DNA of 64,000 nt from Mycolicibacterium goodii (GTDB taxonomy: Bacteria > Actinomycetota > Actinomycetes > Mycobacteriales > Mycobacteriaceae): positions 3,782,001 to 3,846,000 of the forward strand of contig NZ_CP012150.1 of the NCBI RefSeq assembly GCF_001187505.1, in the 5' to 3' direction. This document shows positions 7,354 to 20,191 of this stretch, one piece after another. The first letter of the stretch is position 1, and each line of letters opens with the position of its first letter. The notes beneath the pieces are model-generated. The model was not told the origin of the DNA. It did no database searches and saw nothing but the letters and a program-made list of their open reading frames with translations. Position numbers and translations under genes: made by a program.

Positions 7354-7446
7354 ATGCACGCGGCCGTCAGCGCTTCGGGGAGCCACATCGTGGTGCTTCC
7401 TGCTGTCGGTTTCTGCGTTGTTGCCGACGTTCACTGTTGTCGCTGA
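7354..7446 (+). CDS. Polycysteine leaderless leader peptide upstream of subI
   Basis: A 30-codon ORF beginning MHAAVSASGS and ending DVHCCR, with a further Cys at codon 21. The tandem TGT TGT codons lie two codons before the stop. The ATG sits 7 nt after a −10 hexamer and there is no Shine–Dalgarno sequence, so the mRNA is most likely leaderless. Leaderless short ORFs with clustered Cys codons have been described in mycobacteria as cysteine-responsive attenuators of sulfur-assimilation operons. The position here, ahead of the sulfate importer, fits that role exactly: ribosome stalling at Cys codons under cysteine shortage would open expression of subI-cysTWA. Confidence 0.8.
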   Translation: MHAAVSASGSHIVVLPAVGFCVVADVHCCR

Positions 7447-7564
7447 CTCCAACCCGTCCGCGGTTCGGGGTCGGTCGTGGCTGATCGTTTGCCAAGAATG
7501 CTGATCCATCTGCCTTCCGCTGTGACGGTTCACCCCTGTCCCCAGCCCGAAGGAAAGGTCATCA
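7447..7564 (+). promoter_or_regulatory. Attenuator region between leader peptide and subI
   Basis: Untranslated stretch between the leader-peptide stop and the subI GTG. The subI ribosome-binding site (GGAAAGG, 7552–7558) lies 6 nt before the start. CCTTC at 7513–7517 is complementary to GAAGG at 7549–7553 and could mask it. No intrinsic terminator with a U-run is visible, so control would be at RBS access or Rho-dependent termination. The structure is an inference from complementarity by eye. Confidence 0.45.
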
Positions 7565-8608
7565 GTGCCCACGAAATCGAAGTTCTGGCCGGTTCTCAGC
7601 AAGGCCGCCGCGTTGGCCACCACCGGCATCCTGGCCGTCGGCTGTGGCGGCGGTGCCAGCGACGTCGCAGGCGGTGACGGCGGCGCCGAAGGGGCCGCCG
7701 AGACGACGCTGACGCTGGTCGCCTACGCGGTGCCCGAGCCGGGTTGGAGCAAGATCATCCCGGCCTTCACCGCCACCGAAGAGGGCAAGGGTGTCGCGGT
7801 GCGCACCTCCTACGGGGCCTCCGGTGACCAGTCGCGCGCCGTCGTCGACGGCAAGCCCGCCGACATCGTCAACTTCTCGGTGGAGCCCGACGTCGCCCGG
7901 CTGGTCAAGGCGGGCAAGGTCGACAAGGACTGGAACGCCGGCGCCACCAAGGGCATCCCGTTCGGTTCGGTGGTTTCGCTCGTCGTCCGCAAGGGCAACC
8001 CGAAGGGCATCAAGGACTGGGACGACCTGTTGCAGCCGGGACTCGAGGTGGTGACCCCGAGCCCGCTGAGTTCGGGCTCGGCCAAGTGGAACCTGCTGGC
8101 GCCGTACGCCGCGAAGAGCAACGGCGGCCAGAACCCCGAGGCCGGCATCGACTTCGTCAACAAGCTGGTCACCGAGCACGTCAAGACCCGCCCCGGCTCG
8201 GGCCGTGAGGCCACCGACGTGTTCCTGCAGGGCACCGGCGACGTGCTGATCAGCTACGAGAACGAGGCGATCTACGTCGAGCGCCAGGGCAAGCCCGTCG
8301 AGCACATCAACCCGCCGCAGACCTTCAAGATCGAGAATCCGGTCGCGGTCGTCAACACCACCTCACACGCGGAGCAGGCCAACGCGCTGAAGAACTTCCT
8401 GTTCACCCCCGAAGGTCAAAAGCTGTGGGCCGAGGCCGGGTTCCGGCCCGTCGACCCGGCCGTCGCCGAGCAGTACGCCAAGGACTTCCCGACGCCGGAG
8501 AAGCTGTGGACGATCGACGACCTGGGCGGCTGGGACGCGGTCGACCCGGCGCTGTTCGACAAGGACAACGGCACCATCACCAAGATCTACAAGCAGGCCA
8601 CTGGATGA
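7565..8608 (+). CDS. subI: Sulfate-binding lipoprotein SubI
   Basis: Periplasmic sulfate/thiosulfate-binding protein, 347 aa, first gene of the sulfate importer. The N-terminus has a basic region, a hydrophobic stretch and a lipobox ending AVGC (Cys at residue 26), so it should be a lipid-anchored exported protein. The family features LTLVAYAVPEPGW and the anion-binding TSYGASGDQSRAV (residues about 79–91) are present. The GTG start is preceded by a GGAAAGG ribosome-binding site. It hands sulfate to CysT/CysW; its stop overlaps the cysT start by 4 nt. Expression is probably set by the upstream polycysteine leader. Confidence 0.93.
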   Translation: MPTKSKFWPVLSKAAALATTGILAVGCGGGASDVAGGDGGAEGAAETTLTLVAYAVPEPGWSKIIPAFTATEEGKGVAVRTSYGASGDQSRAVVDGKPADIVNFSVEPDVARLVKAGKVDKDWNAGATKGIPFGSVVSLVVRKGNPKGIKDWDDLLQPGLEVVTPSPLSSGSAKWNLLAPYAAKSNGGQNPEAGIDFVNKLVTEHVKTRPGSGREATDVFLQGTGDVLISYENEAIYVERQGKPVEHINPPQTFKIENPVAVVNTTSHAEQANALKNFLFTPEGQKLWAEAGFRPVDPAVAEQYAKDFPTPEKLWTIDDLGGWDAVDPALFDKDNGTITKIYKQATG

Positions 8609-11493: not shown

Positions 11494-12207
11494 TCAAGCG
11501 GCGAAACCGGCGGTGCGCGCGGCGAGTGCCTCTTCGTAGCGGTCGAGCACCGTGGCGGCCACGAGGCGGTGCGGGCCGAGCGGTTCGGCCATCGGAATAC
11601 CTTCGCCGCGAGCATATTCGGCGACGCGGTCGGTGATGCGGCCGTGCGCCAGGAACCACGGTGCGATCACCAGTCGGGTGGCCCCCCGGGCGCGCAACTG
11701 CTCCACGGCCTCACCTACGGACGGGGTCTGCCCGGTCGCGAAGGCCGCGTGGGTGCCGACCCACCGGGTGCCCTCGGCGAGGTCGGCCGCCAACGCCGCG
11801 GTGCGCGCGTTGGCCGCGGCATGTGACGACCCGACGCCGGTGAGCACCACGCCGAGGCGCGAATCGAAACGTGAAACCCCGAGGGTGGTGAGGCGTTCAC
11901 GCGTCACCTGCAGCAGGCGCGGATCGTTGCCGAGCACCCCGGCCTGCGCCACGTCGGCCCCGGCCTGCGCGATCAGCGCCGGGATGTCGACGCGGGCGTG
12001 GTAGGCGTTGGCGAGCAGCAGCGGCACCACCACGGACCCGGACTCGACGGTGGTGAGCACGTCGGCCAGATTCGGTTCGTTCTGCTCACAGAACGCCACC
12101 CGCACCTCGGTGTCGGGCAGCAGCCGACGCACATGCCCGGCGATCGCCTGAGCATTGGCCGACGAGCGCGGATCCGCGCTGCCGTGTGCGGTCAGAACCA
12201 GTGTCAC
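11494..12207 (-). CDS. Sirohydrochlorin chelatase, CbiX/SirB family
   Basis: About 237 aa, with two tandem CbiX-like halves. The first begins LVLTAHGSADPRS with the metal/tetrapyrrole-binding His; the second carries VLTGVGSSHAAAN and LVIAPWFLAHGRITDRV. Enzymes of this family insert Fe2+ (or Co2+) into sirohydrochlorin. Here, next to sirA, it should make siroheme, the sulfite reductase cofactor. Homologue of Rv2393, which I recall being called Che1. Start chosen at GTG 12207, which overlaps the cysH stop (GTGA); a longer frame with an ATG at 12225 is possible. Confidence 0.87.
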   Translation of the reverse strand: MTLVLTAHGSADPRSSANAQAIAGHVRRLLPDTEVRVAFCEQNEPNLADVLTTVESGSVVVPLLLANAYHARVDIPALIAQAGADVAQAGVLGNDPRLLQVTRERLTTLGVSRFDSRLGVVLTGVGSSHAAANARTAALAADLAEGTRWVGTHAAFATGQTPSVGEAVEQLRARGATRLVIAPWFLAHGRITDRVAEYARGEGIPMAEPLGPHRLVAATVLDRYEEALAARTAGFAA

Positions 12208-12905
12208 GAGACGTGCAATCCGCATTCGGTCTTGGCTTGACCGGCCCAGCGGCCACTGCGCGGATCGGCGCCAGGAATCGGCTTGCTAGTGCACGGTGCG
12301 CAACCGATAGACGGATAGCCTTCGTAGACAAGAGGATTGACGAGGATGCCGTTGGCATCGATGTAGTTCTGCATGTCCTCGTCGGTCCACGCCGCGATCG
12401 GGTTGATCTTCACCAGACCGAACGCGTTGTCCCAGCTGATCAGCGGGGCGTTGGCGCGGGTGGGCGCCTCGACCCGGCGGATGCCGGTGACCCACGCCGA
12501 ATATCCCTTGAGCGCCTTGGTCAACGGCACCACCTTGCGCAGGCGGCAGCACTCGCCGGCATCGCGAGCGAACAGGTCCTTGCCGAGCAGTTCGTCCTGT
12601 TCGGCGACGGTGTGCTCGGGGGTCACGTTGACCACGTGCACGTCGTAGACCGCCTCGACGGCGTCGCGCGTGCCGATGGTCTCGGCGAAGTGGTACCCGG
12701 TGTCGAGGAACAGCACGTCGACGCCGGGACGCACCTTCGCGGCCATCTCGACCAGCACCGCGTCCTGCATGTTCGACGCCACCACGTAATCACCGCCGAA
12801 GTGCTCGTCGGTCCAGCGCAGCAGCTCCTCGGCGCCGGCGTCGGCAAGTTCTGCCGCGCCGCGCTCGGCGAGCTCGCGTAGTTCGTTCTCCGTCGTGATC
12901 GTCAC
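12204..12905 (-). CDS. cysH: Adenylylsulfate (APS) reductase CysH
   Basis: About 233 aa. It reduces adenylylsulfate to sulfite and AMP using thioredoxin. The APS-type (4Fe-4S) motifs are all present: ECCRLRKVVPL, GCAPCTSKP and the catalytic C-terminal ECGLHVS. The paired Cys motifs distinguish it from PAPS reductases without a cluster. GTG at 12905 has a GAGG ribosome-binding site 8 nt upstream; the frame stays open further upstream into sirA, but those residues are not family-like. Middle gene of the sirA-cysH-chelatase operon, 37 nt after sirA. Confidence 0.92.
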   Translation of the reverse strand: MTITTENELRELAERGAAELADAGAEELLRWTDEHFGGDYVVASNMQDAVLVEMAAKVRPGVDVLFLDTGYHFAETIGTRDAVEAVYDVHVVNVTPEHTVAEQDELLGKDLFARDAGECCRLRKVVPLTKALKGYSAWVTGIRRVEAPTRANAPLISWDNAFGLVKINPIAAWTDEDMQNYIDANGILVNPLVYEGYPSIGCAPCTSKPIPGADPRSGRWAGQAKTECGLHVS

Positions 12906-12942
12906 GTCACTCACCTCTGTTGGATGCTCTTCGCGCAAGCGC

Positions 12943-14631
12943 TCATCGCAAGTCGGCTTCGTCGGCCCGCACGGCCCACTGGGCGAAACGCTCACCGTCC
13001 TCGCGTTGTTTCACGAAGTTGCGGACGACGCGCTCGATGTAGTCGCCGAGCTCGGTCGAGAGCACCTTGTGCTGGCGCAACTTGCGCCCGAACCCGCTGT
13101 CCAGTCCGAGGCTGCCGCCGAGGTGCACCTGGAAGCCTTCTTCCGGACCGTTGCCATCGTCGACCATCTGGCCCTTGAACCCGATGTCGGCGACCTGGAT
13201 GCGCGCGCATGAGTTGGGGCAGCCGTTGATGTTCACGGTGATGGGCACGTCGAGTCCGGCGTTGAGATCGCCGAGCCGCGCCTCCAGTTCGGGCACCAGC
13301 ACCTGGGCGCGGCCGCGGGTGTCGGCGAAGCTCAGCTTGCAGTACTCGATGCCGGTGCAGGCCATCAGGTTCCGCCGCCAGTGCGACGGCGTCGACTGCA
13401 GACCCAGCGCCTCCAGTCCGGCGCGCAGCGCGTCGACCTTGTCATCGGCGACATCGAGGATGATCAGCTTCTGGTAGGCGGTGAAGCGGGCACGGTCCGC
13501 GCCCGCAGCCTCCATCAGGTCGGCCACCTTGGTCAGGATGGTTCCCGACACCCGGCCCGCGATCGGTGAGACGCCCACCGCATTGAGACCGTTCTTGAGC
13601 TTCTGCACGCCGACGTGGTCGACGGTGTGCGGCACCTTCTCGGGAGCCGGGCCGTCGATGAGGGGGCGCTTGAGGTATTCCTGTTCCAGGACTTCCCGGA
13701 ACTTTTCCACGCCCCAGTCCTTGACCAGGAACTTCAGCCGGGCCTTCGACCGCAGCCGACGGTAGCCGTAGTCGCGGAAGATCGAGGTGATGCCCTCCCA
13801 GACGTCGGCCACCTCGTCGAGCGGAACCCATACGCCCAGACGCTGGGCCAGCATCGGGTTCGTCGACAGTCCGCCGCCGACCCACACGTCCAGACCGGGC
13901 CCGTGCTCGGGGTGGTTGACGCCGATGAACGACACGTCGTTGATCTCGTGGGCGACGTCCTGCAACCCCGAGATCGCGGTCTTGAACTTGCGCGGCAGGT
14001 TGGAGAACTCCGGGTTGCCGATGTAGCGGCGCTCGATCTCGCGCAGCGCCGGTGTGGCGTCGAGCACCTCGGCGAGCGAGTCGCCGGCCAGCGGGGAGCC
14101 CAGCATGCCGCGTGGGCAGTCGCCGCAGGCCTCCATGGTCTGCAGTCCGACCTCGTCGAGCCGGCGCCAGACCTCGGGCACATCCTCGATCCGCAGCCAG
14201 TGGTACTGCAGATTCTCCCGGTCGGTGATGTCGGCGCTGTCCCGCGCGAAGTCGACCGAGATCTGGCCGAGCGTCCGGATCGCCTGGGCCGACATCGCCT
14301 TGCCGTCGGTGCGCACCCGCATCATGAAGAACTTGGCTTCCAGCAGATCGGCGTTGTCGTCGCCGGTCCAGGTGCCGTCGTAGCCCTCGGTGCGCTGCGT
14401 GTACAGGCCCATCCAGCGGAACCGGCCACGCAGGTCGTCCTTGGTGATGGAGTCGAAACCCTGTTTCGAGTAGACGTCGATGATGCGGTCGCGCACGTTG
14501 AGTGCGTCGTCCTCCTGTTTGAACTGCTCGTTGTGGTTGAGCGGATCGCGGCTGCCCAGCGCCCACTGGCCTTCATCGCGGGGACGCTTGGCGGGCAGAC
14601 CGGCCTTGGCTGGTGCCTCGGAAGATGTCAC
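12943..14631 (-). CDS. sirA: Ferredoxin-dependent sulfite reductase (SirA, formerly NirA)
   Basis: A 562-aa siroheme/4Fe-4S enzyme reducing sulfite to sulfide by six electrons. The cluster-ligand cysteines are in ACTGIEYC and NINGCPNSC; sulfite/siroheme-binding basic regions and the duplicated ferrodoxin-like halves are visible. The mycobacterial homologue (Rv2391) was first named nirA but acts on sulfite. The GTG start has a strong AAGGAG site 8 nt upstream, which lies inside a perfect hairpin (see 14639–14656). Expression is likely controlled through the upstream polycysteine leader. Confidence 0.93.
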   Translation of the reverse strand: MTSSEAPAKAGLPAKRPRDEGQWALGSRDPLNHNEQFKQEDDALNVRDRIIDVYSKQGFDSITKDDLRGRFRWMGLYTQRTEGYDGTWTGDDNADLLEAKFFMMRVRTDGKAMSAQAIRTLGQISVDFARDSADITDRENLQYHWLRIEDVPEVWRRLDEVGLQTMEACGDCPRGMLGSPLAGDSLAEVLDATPALREIERRYIGNPEFSNLPRKFKTAISGLQDVAHEINDVSFIGVNHPEHGPGLDVWVGGGLSTNPMLAQRLGVWVPLDEVADVWEGITSIFRDYGYRRLRSKARLKFLVKDWGVEKFREVLEQEYLKRPLIDGPAPEKVPHTVDHVGVQKLKNGLNAVGVSPIAGRVSGTILTKVADLMEAAGADRARFTAYQKLIILDVADDKVDALRAGLEALGLQSTPSHWRRNLMACTGIEYCKLSFADTRGRAQVLVPELEARLGDLNAGLDVPITVNINGCPNSCARIQVADIGFKGQMVDDGNGPEEGFQVHLGGSLGLDSGFGRKLRQHKVLSTELGDYIERVVRNFVKQREDGERFAQWAVRADEADLR

Positions 14632-14638
14632 TGTTGAT

Positions 14639-14656
14639 GCTCCTTGGTCAAGGAGC
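14639..14656 (-). promoter_or_regulatory. Shine–Dalgarno-masking hairpin of sirA
   Basis: GCTCCTT and AAGGAGC form a perfect 7-bp stem with a 4-nt loop. The 3' arm in the mRNA is the sirA ribosome-binding site. In the folded form the site is closed. This fits an attenuator in which translation or stalling on the polycysteine leader about 100 nt upstream shifts the fold and frees the site. Confidence 0.7.
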
Positions 14657-14755
14657 CGGCGTACGGATCGCGCTGATCACCGGTGGCTGTCCGGCGGCGC
14701 AGATCCGGGCCAGCTGAAAATTCTGGGTGGGCTAGGTTCCGAAATCAACGCAGGA

Positions 14756-14851
14756 TCAGGGCAGACAGCAACAGCTACAGACGCGCTTGAAATCGACATG
14801 CCGCCGGGCCACCAGCGAGATGCCGGTGATGCTGTTGCGGGCGGAAGTCAC
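14756..14851 (-). CDS. Polycysteine leaderless leader peptide upstream of sirA
   Basis: A 31-codon ORF from GTG, reading MTSARNSITG… and ending VCSCCCLP: four Cys codons within five positions, right before the stop. A CAGAAT −10-like hexamer (14858–14863) ends exactly 6 nt before the GTG and there is no ribosome-binding site, so translation should be leaderless. It matches the mycobacterial family of cysteine-responsive attenuator peptides and precedes sirA-cysH-chelatase. Confidence 0.82.
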   Translation of the reverse strand: MTSARNSITGISLVARRHVDFKRVCSCCCLP

Positions 14852-14857
14852 GTCGAC

Positions 14858-14863
14858 ATTCTG
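14858..14863 (-). promoter_or_regulatory. −10 element of the sirA–cysH leader transcript
   Basis: CAGAAT on the minus strand, 6 nt upstream of the GTG of the leader peptide; it agrees with TANNNT at the conserved A and final T. Apart from the leader peptide, this promoter and the SD hairpin, the 321-bp interval 14632–14952 shows only the hemW promoter region. Confidence 0.5.
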
Positions 14864-14952
14864 CCACGTATGGCGCCACCGGCCCTAACCGGCCCAGATT
14901 TGCGCTCAGGGTGAGCAAAAGTCTTCGCTGGACAGTCTGGGAAAATCGAGAG

Positions 14953-16122
14953 ATGACCACGCGGACCGCGCCCCTGGGCCAGCCCGATCTGGCCCCCACG
15001 CCGGGCCGGCCCTTCGGCATCTACATCCATGTGCCGTTCTGCGCCACACGCTGCGGATACTGCGACTTCAACACCTACACGCCTGCCGAACTCGGCGGTG
15101 CCAACCCCGAGGGCTGGCTGGCGGCGCTGCGCACCGAGCTGCGGCTGGCCGCCGAACGCGTGGGCGCGCCGGTGCAGACGGTGTTCGTCGGCGGCGGCAC
15201 CCCGTCGCTGCTGGGCGGTGCCGGTCTGCGCGCGGTGCTCGACGCGGTGCGCGACAACTTCGAACTGGGCGCCGACGCCGAGGTGACCACCGAGGCCAAC
15301 CCCGAGTCCACGTCACCCGAGCTGTTCGCCACGCTGCGCGACGCGGGCTACACCCGCATCTCTTTGGGCATGCAGTCGGTGGCGCCGCACGTGCTCGCGG
15401 TGCTCAACCGCGCGCATTCGCCGGGACGGGCGCCGGCCGCCGTGGCCGAGGCCAGGGCCGCGGGCTTCGAACACGTCAATCTCGACCTCATCTACGGCAC
15501 ACCGGGGGAGTCCGACGACGATCTGCTCCGCTCGGTCGAGGCGGCCGTGCACGCCGGCGTCGACCACGTGTCCGGCTATGCGTTGGTGGTGGAGGAGGGG
15601 ACGGCGCTGGCGCGGCGAGTTCGCCGCGGTGAGGTCGCCGCACCGGACGACGACATCCTCGCGCACCGGTACGAACTGCTCGACGCGACGCTTTCGGCCG
15701 CGGGTTACCGGTGGTACGAGGTGTCGAACTGGAGCAGGCCCGGCGGCGAGTGCAGGCACAACCTCGGCTACTGGGACGGCGGCGAGTGGTGGGGCGCAGG
15801 TCCTGGCGCCCACGGTTTCCTCGGCGTCACGCGGTGGTGGAACATCAAGCACCCGAACGCATATGCGCAGCGTCTGGCCGAAGGCGCCCTGCCCATCGCC
15901 GATTCCGAGGTGCTCGGCGCGCAGGACCGGCACACCGAGGACGTGATGCTGCGGCTGCGGTTGCGCAGTGGTCTGGCGATCGAGGACCTCGCGGGCGACG
16001 AGCGCGCGCGGGTGCCCGAAATCGTCGCCGACGGCCTGCTCGACACCGTGGGGGAGCGCGTGGTTCTCACCGACCGCGGGCGGTTGCTGGCCGACGGTGT
16101 GGTGCGCACGCTGCTGGCCTGA
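14953..16122 (+). CDS. hemW: HemW-like radical SAM protein (annotated as HemN)
   Basis: A 389-aa radical SAM protein with the CxxxCxxC cluster motif in VPFCATRCGYCDFNTY near the N-terminus, followed by the GGGTPSLL and MQSVAPHVL motifs. Proteins of this length with this cysteine pattern are HemW heme chaperones rather than true oxygen-independent coproporphyrinogen oxidases (HemN), despite the common annotation (Rv2388c hemN). Start taken at MTTRTAPLG. A GAAAAT hexamer at 14941–14946 ends 6 nt before this ATG. Divergent from the sirA leader. Confidence 0.87.
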   Translation: MTTRTAPLGQPDLAPTPGRPFGIYIHVPFCATRCGYCDFNTYTPAELGGANPEGWLAALRTELRLAAERVGAPVQTVFVGGGTPSLLGGAGLRAVLDAVRDNFELGADAEVTTEANPESTSPELFATLRDAGYTRISLGMQSVAPHVLAVLNRAHSPGRAPAAVAEARAAGFEHVNLDLIYGTPGESDDDLLRSVEAAVHAGVDHVSGYALVVEEGTALARRVRRGEVAAPDDDILAHRYELLDATLSAAGYRWYEVSNWSRPGGECRHNLGYWDGGEWWGAGPGAHGFLGVTRWWNIKHPNAYAQRLAEGALPIADSEVLGAQDRHTEDVMLRLRLRSGLAIEDLAGDERARVPEIVADGLLDTVGERVVLTDRGRLLADGVVRTLLA

Positions 16123-16169: not shown

Positions 16170-18311
<2,142 letters not shown>

Positions 18312-18315
<4 letters not shown>

Positions 18316-19472
18316 GAGGGTTGCACCTGTTCGGTTCGGGTGAGGTCGGCGGTCAGTCCGAAGGCGCCGGGTCCGCCATGTGCGTCGAGAGATCGGCGGA
18401 CGAATCGGTCCTCGACAAGGGCGTCGTGCACCTCAGCGGGGTCGAGCCGGTCGAGGAACCGGCGGTCGCCGTCGACGACGGTGTCGTGCATGGCCTCGAC
18501 GAGGCGGCGCGTGAAGCTCGGGTACGGGAAGGGTTGGAAACCCAGGCGCTGCGGCAGCCAATCTGGATGTGCCGGCGGGTAGGGCGGCTTCGGGTAGGTC
18601 AGTGCCAGCGTGACCGCCGGTGTGGGTTGCGGTAGATACCTGCCCCCGGTCAGCACCGCAGCGGCGGCGGCACGGTCGGCGTCGATACGCAGTTGCGCTC
18701 CCACCACCGCATCGGCGACGGCCTGTACGGCCTGCGGGCGGTCGGCGATGACGTCGTCCCGGGTGACCAGCGCGCAGCACGCGTGGTCACGCCAGACATC
18801 GCCGAGGAAGGTGTGGATGTGGCCGATCTTCTTGATCTGCGCGGCGGCGTTGAACGGGTCTGCCACCACGTAGCCGCCCAGCGTGCCGTTGGCCAGAGCG
18901 GGCACCATGTCCGAGGGACTCATGACGACGAGTTCCACGGTCCGGTCGCTGCGGGAAGCACTGTGCCGCACCACAGGTCGTAGGCCATGTGCCCGAAGCA
19001 GCTGCTGCAGCACGATGTTGTGGATCGACCACCAGAACGGGATGGCCACCTGGCTTCCTGCGAGATCGCCCAGCTCCCGGATGTGTGGCGCGACCGTCAG
19101 CGCCGATCCGTTGGTGTGGTTCCAGCCCAGCACCCGGACCCCGGCGCCCAGGGTGTAGCGCAACTGGACGGCCATCGGCATCAGCAGGTGCACGACGTCG
19201 ACCTGGCGGGTGATGAACGCCTCTGCCAGGGCGGCCCAGCTCCTGAAGAGCACCGGGCGTGCCCCGCTCACGGCCGTGGCCGGGTACAGCCCGGCGCTGT
19301 GGGCGATCAGCAGCGGCGCGGCGTCGGTGATGGGCAGGTAACCCACCCGCAGCGCACCACCGGCCCCCGGTGCGCTGCCGAGTGCGCTGTGTGCCAGCCC
19401 GCCGATACCGAAGAGCCCACCGGCCGCGGTCAATCCGGTTGCCCCGGCCAGCAGCGCGCGTCGGGTCAGCAC
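18312..19472 (-). CDS. ABC transporter substrate-binding protein, NrtA/SsuA-like, Tat-exported
   Basis: 386 aa. The N-terminus MLTRRALLAGATGLTAAGG is a twin-arginine signal followed by a hydrophobic stretch, so the protein is probably exported folded. The mature part begins LRVGYLPITDAAPLLIAHSA, typical of NrtA/SsuA/NMT1-like binding proteins. The GTG start follows a GGAGG site about 10 nt upstream and lies 2 nt after the ATPase stop. The ligand cannot be told from sequence. Confidence 0.85.
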
Positions 19473-19474
19473 CG

Positions 19475-20191
19475 TCAGGTCACCTCCACCGCGGGGTCGG
19501 CGCGGTACTGGGCGAGAATCTCACTGCGCGTGGGGAATCCGTCGCTGCCGACTGCCCACTCCGCACGGATGCGGCCTGCGTCGAGCAGCACGATGCGCTG
19601 CGCCAGCGCGAGTGCTTCGTCGACGTCGTGGGTGACGAGCACGACGGTGACGTCGAGTTCTCGTGCCAGGTCCCGCAGCCACCCGGTCAGATCGCCTCGG
19701 GTGGCCGGGTCAAGTGCGCTGAAGGGTTCGTCGAGAAGGAGCAGCTGAGGGCGGGTGGCGACGGCGCGCAGGATGGCCACCCGCTGGGCCTGCCCGCCCG
19801 ACAGTTCGTCGGGGTAGCGGCCGGCGAGGTGGTCCAGTCCGAATCTGGTGATGAGCCTGGCGGCGTCCTCGGCGTCGAACCCCCTGCGCTGTGCCTTGAA
19901 CCGGCGTGCGAAGCCCACATTGTCCGTGACGGTCAGCCACGGCATCAACAGGGGCTGTTGGAAGACCACGCCGGTACGCGGCCGGCTGCCGTCGCTCGAC
20001 CAGGTCAAGGTGCCGGAAGTCAGGGCATCCAAGCCGGCGCAGATCCGCAGTAACGTCGATTTGCCACTGCCGCTGGGGCCGAGTACCGCGAGAAACTCTC
20101 CTGCGTGGATCTGCAGGTTGACCTCGGCCAGAGCCGGTGTGCCGCCGAACTGTCTGGTGCCGTTCGCTATTCGTAGTGCGTGAGTTCCCAC
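19475..20191 (-). CDS. ABC transporter ATPase, SsuB/TauB type
   Basis: A 238-aa cassette: Walker [10 protein letters not shown], signature LSGGQAQRVAILRAVA, Walker B LLLDEPFSALD and LVTHDVDEAL with the switch His. It powers the adjacent SsuC-like permease. The GTG start, with a GGAAGG site upstream, overlaps the end of the flavoprotein gene by 25 nt. Confidence 0.9.
   Translation of the reverse strand: MGTHALRIANGTRQFGGTPALAEVNLQIHAGEFLAVLGPSGSGKSTLLRICAGLDALTSGTLTWSSDGSRPRTGVVFQQPLLMPWLTVTDNVGFARRFKAQRRGFDAEDAARLITRFGLDHLAGRYPDELSGGQAQRVAILRAVATRPQLLLLDEPFSALDPATRGDLTGWLRDLARELDVTVVLVTHDVDEALALAQRIVLLDAGRIRAEWAVGSDGFPTRSEILAQYRADPAVEVT

Follow-up and report, generated by a model that had tools for sequence, protein, structure and literature searches.

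The polycysteine leader ORF upstream of sirA in Mycolicibacterium goodii is an already described cysteine leader, with a published counterpart and a curated family, and we consider it likely (probability roughly 0.7) that the locus is a copy of the known mycobacterial cysteine attenuator in which ribosome dwell at the end of the leader changes access to the sirA Shine-Dalgarno (SD) sequence. Membership in a published and curated family already accounts for the main point; new here, from 98 distinct loci, are a predicted competition between a stem (E) and a hairpin (S) around the SD and the predicted complementarity of a post-stop segment (B) to E. Sequence comparison and structure prediction give the leader ORF with its peptide, the conserved E, the hairpin S, the GGCU shared by the two helices and their predicted competition. 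The window is the whole 64,000-nucleotide stretch of the 7.1-Mb M. goodii genome that was analysed, and its features at the sirA locus are as follows:

14858-14863, minus strand: -10 element CAGAAT of a putative leaderless promoter, from the sequence (read 14863-14858)
14756-14851, minus strand: polycysteine leader ORF of the Ms4527A family, 31 codons, GTG start at 14851, TGA stop
14759-14779, minus strand: codons TGT AGC TGT TGC TGT CTG CCC for C-S-C-C-C-L-P, from the sequence
14739-14751, minus strand: segment B, GCGTTGATTTCGG, directly past the leader stop and complementary to the 5' strand of E (best duplex)
14654-14716, minus strand: stem E, candidate anti-sequestrator, CAGCTGGC (14716-14709) with GCCGGCT (14660-14654); within it, GGATCTGCGC (14706-14697) with GCGCGATCC (14673-14665), plus CGCCGG with CCGGTG
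14639-14656, minus strand: hairpin S, GCTCCTT-GACC-AAGGAGC, 7 bp with a 4-nt loop, its 3' arm being the sirA SD
12943-14631, minus strand: sirA/nirA, ferredoxin sulfite reductase (NIR_SIR, PF01077; nirA/Msmeg_4527 in passages of Shell et al. 2015)
12204-12995, minus strand: cysH, APS/PAPS reductase, from profile matches
11494-12225, minus strand: CbiX-domain protein (PF01903 over its cut-off, nickelochelatase models below theirs), probably a sirohydrochlorin chelatase

The sirA leader and its counterparts

The first-pass annotation had described a CAGAAT element, a GTG 6 nt downstream and a 31-codon ORF with a CSCCCLP end, and all of these are present on the minus strand; the 31-residue product is VTSARNSITGISLVARRHVDFKRVCSCCCLP, with CSCCCLP followed directly by the stop at the ORF end (14756). 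The spacing lies within the 5-8 nt that separate the -10 element from the RTG start in polycysteine leaderless attenuators, the Cys codon run adjoins the stop as in polycysteine leaders, and the ORF is placed directly 5' of sirA/nirA on the same strand, as in the Ms4527A family. Its assignment as a polycysteine leader was upheld by the NCBIfam model NF042936 ("Ms4527A family Cys-rich leader peptide"), which residues 11-31 match at 56.5 bits against a cut-off of 45, and by an orthologous ORF in the legend to Figure 7C of Shell et al. 2015 (PMC4633059). Downstream follow sirA, whose GTG (14631) lies 8 nt after AAGGAG (14645-14640) and 124 nt past the leader, then cysH and then the CbiX-domain gene.

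Leaders with a run of Cys codons 5' of mycobacterial cys operons were already noted in 2005 (PMC1262725), and passages of Shell et al. 2015 describe conserved Cys-rich small ORFs, one of them 5' of nirA/Msmeg_4527, and propose cysteine attenuation (PMC4633059). According to papers that cite it (PMC9031893, PMC13236596), Canestrari et al. 2020 (doi 10.1111/mmi.14498) reported cysteine-dependent attenuation in M. smegmatis, and the polycysteine leaderless ORFs of that species are described there, second-hand, as cysteine-responsive attenuators. Six M. tuberculosis ORFs have been analysed and predicted to be regulatory through conservation with those of M. smegmatis, in the part of that work consulted (PMC9094748). 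The copy in the window, known from its sequence alone, resembles the Msmeg_4527 ORF in its downstream gene, its C-terminal peptide (by profile) and its leaderless arrangement (by sequence); an analysis of E, S and B is absent from the passages of Shell et al. 2015 that describe that ORF (PMC4633059). A search of one open-licence collection of papers gave none under the names Ms4527A, Ms5788A, cis_reg_atten (NF042934), Cys-rich leader peptide or RRHVD.

When the whole window was scanned for [CT]ANNNT, 5-8 nt, RTG and 12-60 codons with at least three Cys within the last ten residues, three matches resulted, namely the sirA leader ORF and two nested starts of the subI leader; 20 Markov sequences of the same length gave 0.15 on average. 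When at least four Cys were demanded, the sirA leader ORF alone was left in the window and ten Markov sequences yielded none. The leader ORF occurs beyond chance expectation, and conservation is a stronger argument for leader and hairpin than these chance statistics. The 104 mycobacterial sirA loci that we collected (24 plus the best 80 of 585 candidate stretches) include 102 that carry a leaderless ORF with at least three Cys in its tail; a [CT]ANNAT element lies 5-8 nt before the leader start at 102/104, this pattern having formed part of the rule by which leaders were picked, and sirA starts 105-128 nt past the leader stop in the 102. The exceptions are L103 (M. persicum) and L108 (M. ostraviense), where no leader was found by the rule within 450 bp 5' of sirA; both have AAGGAG as SD, and no anti-SD was seen there by eye. 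L040, a record titled as an Acidobacteria MAG, has a sirA locus 84% identical to that of the window, with the leader present, and is probably a mis-binned mycobacterial contig. Ninety-eight distinct leader-tail-plus-gap sequences were aligned for the analyses below, in which the shuffled and swapped controls ignore kinship, and neither the 98 loci nor subsets such as the 79 with S are independent events.

The window also holds a sulfate uptake operon of the subI type with its own leader on the plus strand (7354-7443, then 7444-7565), where TATTCT lies 7 nt 5' of the ATG and the peptide matches NF042937 (Ms4533A family) at 45.6 bits against a cut-off of 31. The two cysteine operons had been called divergent; they are in fact convergent, the subI-type operon reading along the plus strand from a leader at 7354 and the sirA operon along the minus strand from a leader at 14851. 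They had further been said to share their logic without shared sequence, which holds for these two leaders, both of them cysteine-rich leaderless ORFs that match different families (NF042936 and NF042937) and have no common peptide motif, but not for a third leader elsewhere in the same genome, which shares the motif of the sirA leader:

L124 (G000:C1:2495600-2498400), about 2044-1952, minus strand: leader with the RR-VD-RV motif, VDLCRVAG and eight consecutive Cys codons

This third leader lies 5' of DUF4395 and rhodanese genes and scores 34.1 against NF042934 (cut-off 27) and 42.0 against NF042933 (cut-off 45). The sirA leader resembles the Ms5788A attenuator, reportedly the subject of Canestrari et al. 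2020, in being a polycysteine leaderless ORF with presumed SD masking and an RR-VD-RV motif, which NF042933 recognises weakly at 18.3 bits against its cut-off of 45. It differs in its operon, and the host genome has a separate leader of the Ms5788A kind, the one with eight terminal Cys codons before the DUF4395 and rhodanese genes. With the cis_reg_atten "putative leader peptide" (NF042934) the sirA leader has the RxHVD..RV frame in common, while scoring 21.3 bits, below the cut-off of 27. For the subI operon the predicted SD-opening cost is 6.49 kcal/mol, equalled by 10/300 shuffles, which is suggestive of a masking logic common to both leaders. A second transport cluster near the sulfur genes (17518-20191, minus strand) encodes a permease, an NMT1-like binding protein and an ABC ATPase, and no leader was found 5' of it in scans for a Cys tail and for RxHVD. 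Rfam riboswitch and T-box models gave no match within the window at their gathering thresholds.

Predicted folds around the sirA Shine-Dalgarno sequence

The perfect 7-bp hairpin with AAGGAG in its 3' arm that had been proposed is present at 14656-14639, and S forms part of the predicted MFE fold of the window RNA. Opening the local hairpin is predicted to cost 8.8 kcal/mol, a value that 22/1000 shuffles of the 22 nt 5' of the SD match, and S by itself appears moderately unusual. Over the whole leader-to-sirA RNA the SD-opening cost is an unremarkable 5.0 kcal/mol, which 82/300 shuffles reach. The claim of a hairpin that masks the SD is upheld as a prediction: S is present at 79 of the 98 distinct loci, being counted where the local opening cost exceeds 4 kcal/mol (our own cut). 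The whole-gap cost does not rise above that of shuffles. In fold energies, the full transcript has z = -1.07 (35/200 shuffles as good) and the intergenic part alone z = -2.75 (0/200).

Across loci S forms as GGCUCC..GGAGCC or as AGCUCCUU..AAGGAGC and is paired in 72.5% of alignment cells, against 39-50% for versions of the helix slid along the alignment, a level that 17/500 shuffles reach. Its covariation does not exceed that of shuffles, the score being reached by 356/500 and the two-sided changes equalled or exceeded in 495/500. By the energy cut a clade of 12 loci that includes M. parascrofulaceum (L104) keeps the leader without S (L017, L018, L020-L024, L104, L106, L107, L109 and L110), so S cannot be a universal output of the leader. 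The same clade also lacks CAGC in the apical loop of E, an observation that is only suggestive. The SD of each relative was taken as the simple best match, and since a few such picks are doubtful (AGAAG, CCGAG, AGGAA) some calls of no S (L065, L074, L007) may be wrong.

Stem E is an extended stem with the base AGCUGGC..GCCGGCU, and its GGCU segment is common to E and S. E is paired in 93.1% of alignment cells, compared with 31-44% for slid versions, and 3/500 shuffles reach this level. Its covariation score is reached by 14/500 shuffles; in two-sided changes, four of six slid versions have more cells than E, and because the changes in E are mostly one-sided, the covariation support is modest. 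RNAalifold run on the whole alignment returned a mixed structure and was replaced by explicit helices.

With the first strand of E (CAGCUGGC) blocked, the predicted SD-opening cost was higher by over 0.5 kcal/mol at 82 of the 98 loci and lower at three (median +3.7); in the window the cost rose from 5.0 to 9.0 kcal/mol. These calculations point to a conserved competition between S and E around the sirA SD. At the nucleotide that the two helices share, an A gives E a Watson-Crick pair and deprives S of its first pair, and two extra lower pairs of S are found in 17/18 sequences with A, in 4/69 with G and in 0/11 with C or T. An A at this position occurs in six separate groups on the SirA tree. 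The window is one of the four G sequences with a long S and is an exception to this balance of E and S.

The sequence of segment B differs among clades, yet it complements the 5' strand of E. Compared with shuffled segments, the duplex of B with E has a mean z of -0.62, with 31/98 loci below -1 and none above 1; against three other targets the mean z is 0.11, -0.18 and 0.44. When the whole post-stop segment was masked, the SD cost fell at 63 of the 79 loci with S and rose at one, and masking only its first 14 nt lowered it in 51 and raised it in two of the 79. Segment B is accordingly a predicted element that keeps the SD shut.

From the leader ribosome to the Shine-Dalgarno sequence

The first-pass annotation had drawn a switch in which the translation state of the leader decides whether the SD is open, and had proposed folding the RNA with and without a ribosome on the leader. 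The footprint was assumed to begin 18 nt 5' of the A-site codon and to extend 13 nt from it. In the window, opening the SD costs 5.36 kcal/mol for free RNA, 4.53-5.06 when a Cys codon occupies the A site and 4.15 when the stop does. Over 308 Cys-codon placements at 79 loci the change was small (median -0.07, mean -0.38 kcal/mol), the SD becoming easier to open by more than 0.5 kcal/mol in 107 placements and harder in 64; averaged per locus, opening was easier in 22/79 and harder in 12/79. The largest effect, still small, was found at the stop codon (median -0.41 kcal/mol; easier in 35/79, harder in 12/79). An earlier measure, the mean unpaired probability of the SD, moved by -0.02 to +0.03 on average. 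As a footprint on the Cys codons hardly alters the SD cost, the claim is not supported as stated: in the equilibrium masking calculations a ribosome on these codons is not seen to open the SD directly. Taken at face value, equilibrium folding would leave the SD more accessible with a ribosome at the stop than with one stalled on Cys, the reverse of what is expected of a biosynthetic operon. This outcome could be altered by the kinetics of folding, by queues of ribosomes, by pseudoknots or by a Rho step. The switch as first drawn is a plausible proposal.

Some 100 nt separate the Cys codons from hairpin S downstream of them, so a relay is needed, and stem E together with segment B are the candidates for carrying a signal from leader to SD, in a direction that folding leaves unfixed. 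A kissing interaction between the Cys tract and E's apical loop (ACAGC) was rejected as covariation evidence, because own pairs were no better than species-swapped ones. Own duplexes ranged from -2.3 to -16.5 kcal/mol with a mean of -10.04 against -10.24 when permuted, and permutations were as good or better in 4753/5000 cases, or 4157/5000 when only loci with S were used, the loop-extraction pattern having miscut at least four loops (L053, L061, L079, L082). In the model of Canestrari et al. 2020, stalled ribosomes reportedly block structures that sequester the RBS. At sirA, the leaderless mRNA would start at or next to the GTG and be translated from its 5' end, a shortage of Cys-tRNA would make ribosomes linger where the leader ORF ends, and their presence there would lead the next ~110 nt to refold, with altered access to the sirA SD. 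As to direction, formation of E would leave the SD open, segment B would disrupt E, and ribosomes at the leader end would shield E from B, such that low cysteine would give more SirA-CysH.

Control codons in a leader ORF combined with alternative helices recall a trp-type transcription attenuator. Unlike in that system, the proposed target is the SD, and a simple consensus scan of the minus strand from 13800 to 15800 found no intrinsic terminator, the sole terminator-like site being on the plus strand at 15343. A long gap of this kind would also suit Rho, with the position of the leader ribosome deciding termination within the 124 nt and thereby transcription, not SD access; the post-stop segment is C-rich in many loci by eye, and Rho has been suggested for mycobacterial cys leaders in a paper that, in the part consulted, rates its own Rho-site prediction as rather weak for lack of conservation in the motifs (PMC1262725). 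Rho would have no need of the conserved, SD-centred competition between E and S, and we regard this explanation as unlikely. It also seems improbable that S and E simply reflect a GC-rich sequence, with the leader acting through translational coupling or mRNA stability and S merely setting a low basal level. The full-length fold (z = -1.07), the whole-intergenic SD cost (82/300 shuffles) and the lack of covariation above shuffles in S agree with such an origin, whereas the conservation of E across 98 loci and the intergenic z of -2.75 speak against it, and 105-128 nt from leader stop to sirA start is far for coupling.

Selection on the leader peptide

Over 97 leaders the 12 non-Cys codons of LVxRxHVDFKRV have a dN/dS of 0.10, compared with 1.06 for the part that precedes them, a value inflated because that part was aligned ungapped from the right end; L024, which has no motif, was excluded. 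Synonymous codons vary within the motif (Asp GAC 50, GAT 47; Val GTC 32, GTT 31, GTA 17, GTG 13). Since neither Cys codons alone nor RNA structure alone would be expected to give such a codon pattern, the comparison argues that the leader peptide itself is under selection.

Among 150 genomes of the order, NF042936 has matches at E <= 0.001 in 106 but over its cut-off in only 15. Ten genomes from other families of the order, namely those in which the sirA match covers the greater part of the query, were searched with the pattern [LF][VT]xR[RL]H[VI]D. Eight of them have a same-strand leader 5' of sirA that is built on this peptide frame and has a single Cys beyond the motif (e.g., LVARLHVDLQRVISAACPS; L025, L027-L030, L120, L121 and L123, of which the last three are stop-to-stop readings with the start and any Cys 5' of the motif unset). 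In the remaining two, G025 has its leader on the opposite strand and none was found in G027. L025-L030 failed the rule of at least three Cys and were left out of the mycobacterial counts; among the loci examined, the Cys run is confined to mycobacteria.

These observations bear on a further explanation, in which the ribosome would be held at the leader end by its nascent LVxRRHVDFKRV-C chain, and mycobacteria would have elaborated a one-Cys leader with the Cys run. The low dN/dS of the motif relative to the preceding part, the one-Cys leaders in 8/10 other-family genomes, the peak of the footprint effect at the stop and a Pro before the usual stop in 79/97 leaders all agree with it, but the contrast in dN/dS is exaggerated by the inflated 1.06, and L024 keeps CSCCC without the motif; we consider this explanation possible, if somewhat doubtful. 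More tentative still is the idea of a leader that senses through its nascent peptide and not just through a set of hungry codons, in which the LVxR[RL]H[VI]D..RV..S..C frame, common to the one-Cys sirA leaders of other families, would park the ribosome at the leader end according to cysteine or sulfur status, covering B such that E forms and the anti-SD strand leaves the SD, with the mycobacterial Cys run added on top.

For the attenuator that we favour, the central question is how a stall about 100 nt away reaches the SD, that is, what the missing relay is, and a second is why 12 non-Cys leader codons are kept at the amino-acid level. The one-Cys relatives raise the question of whether the Cys run accounts for all of the sensing. 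The predicted layout of E, S and B defines segments for mutation, and a conserved fold around the sirA SD merits experiment.
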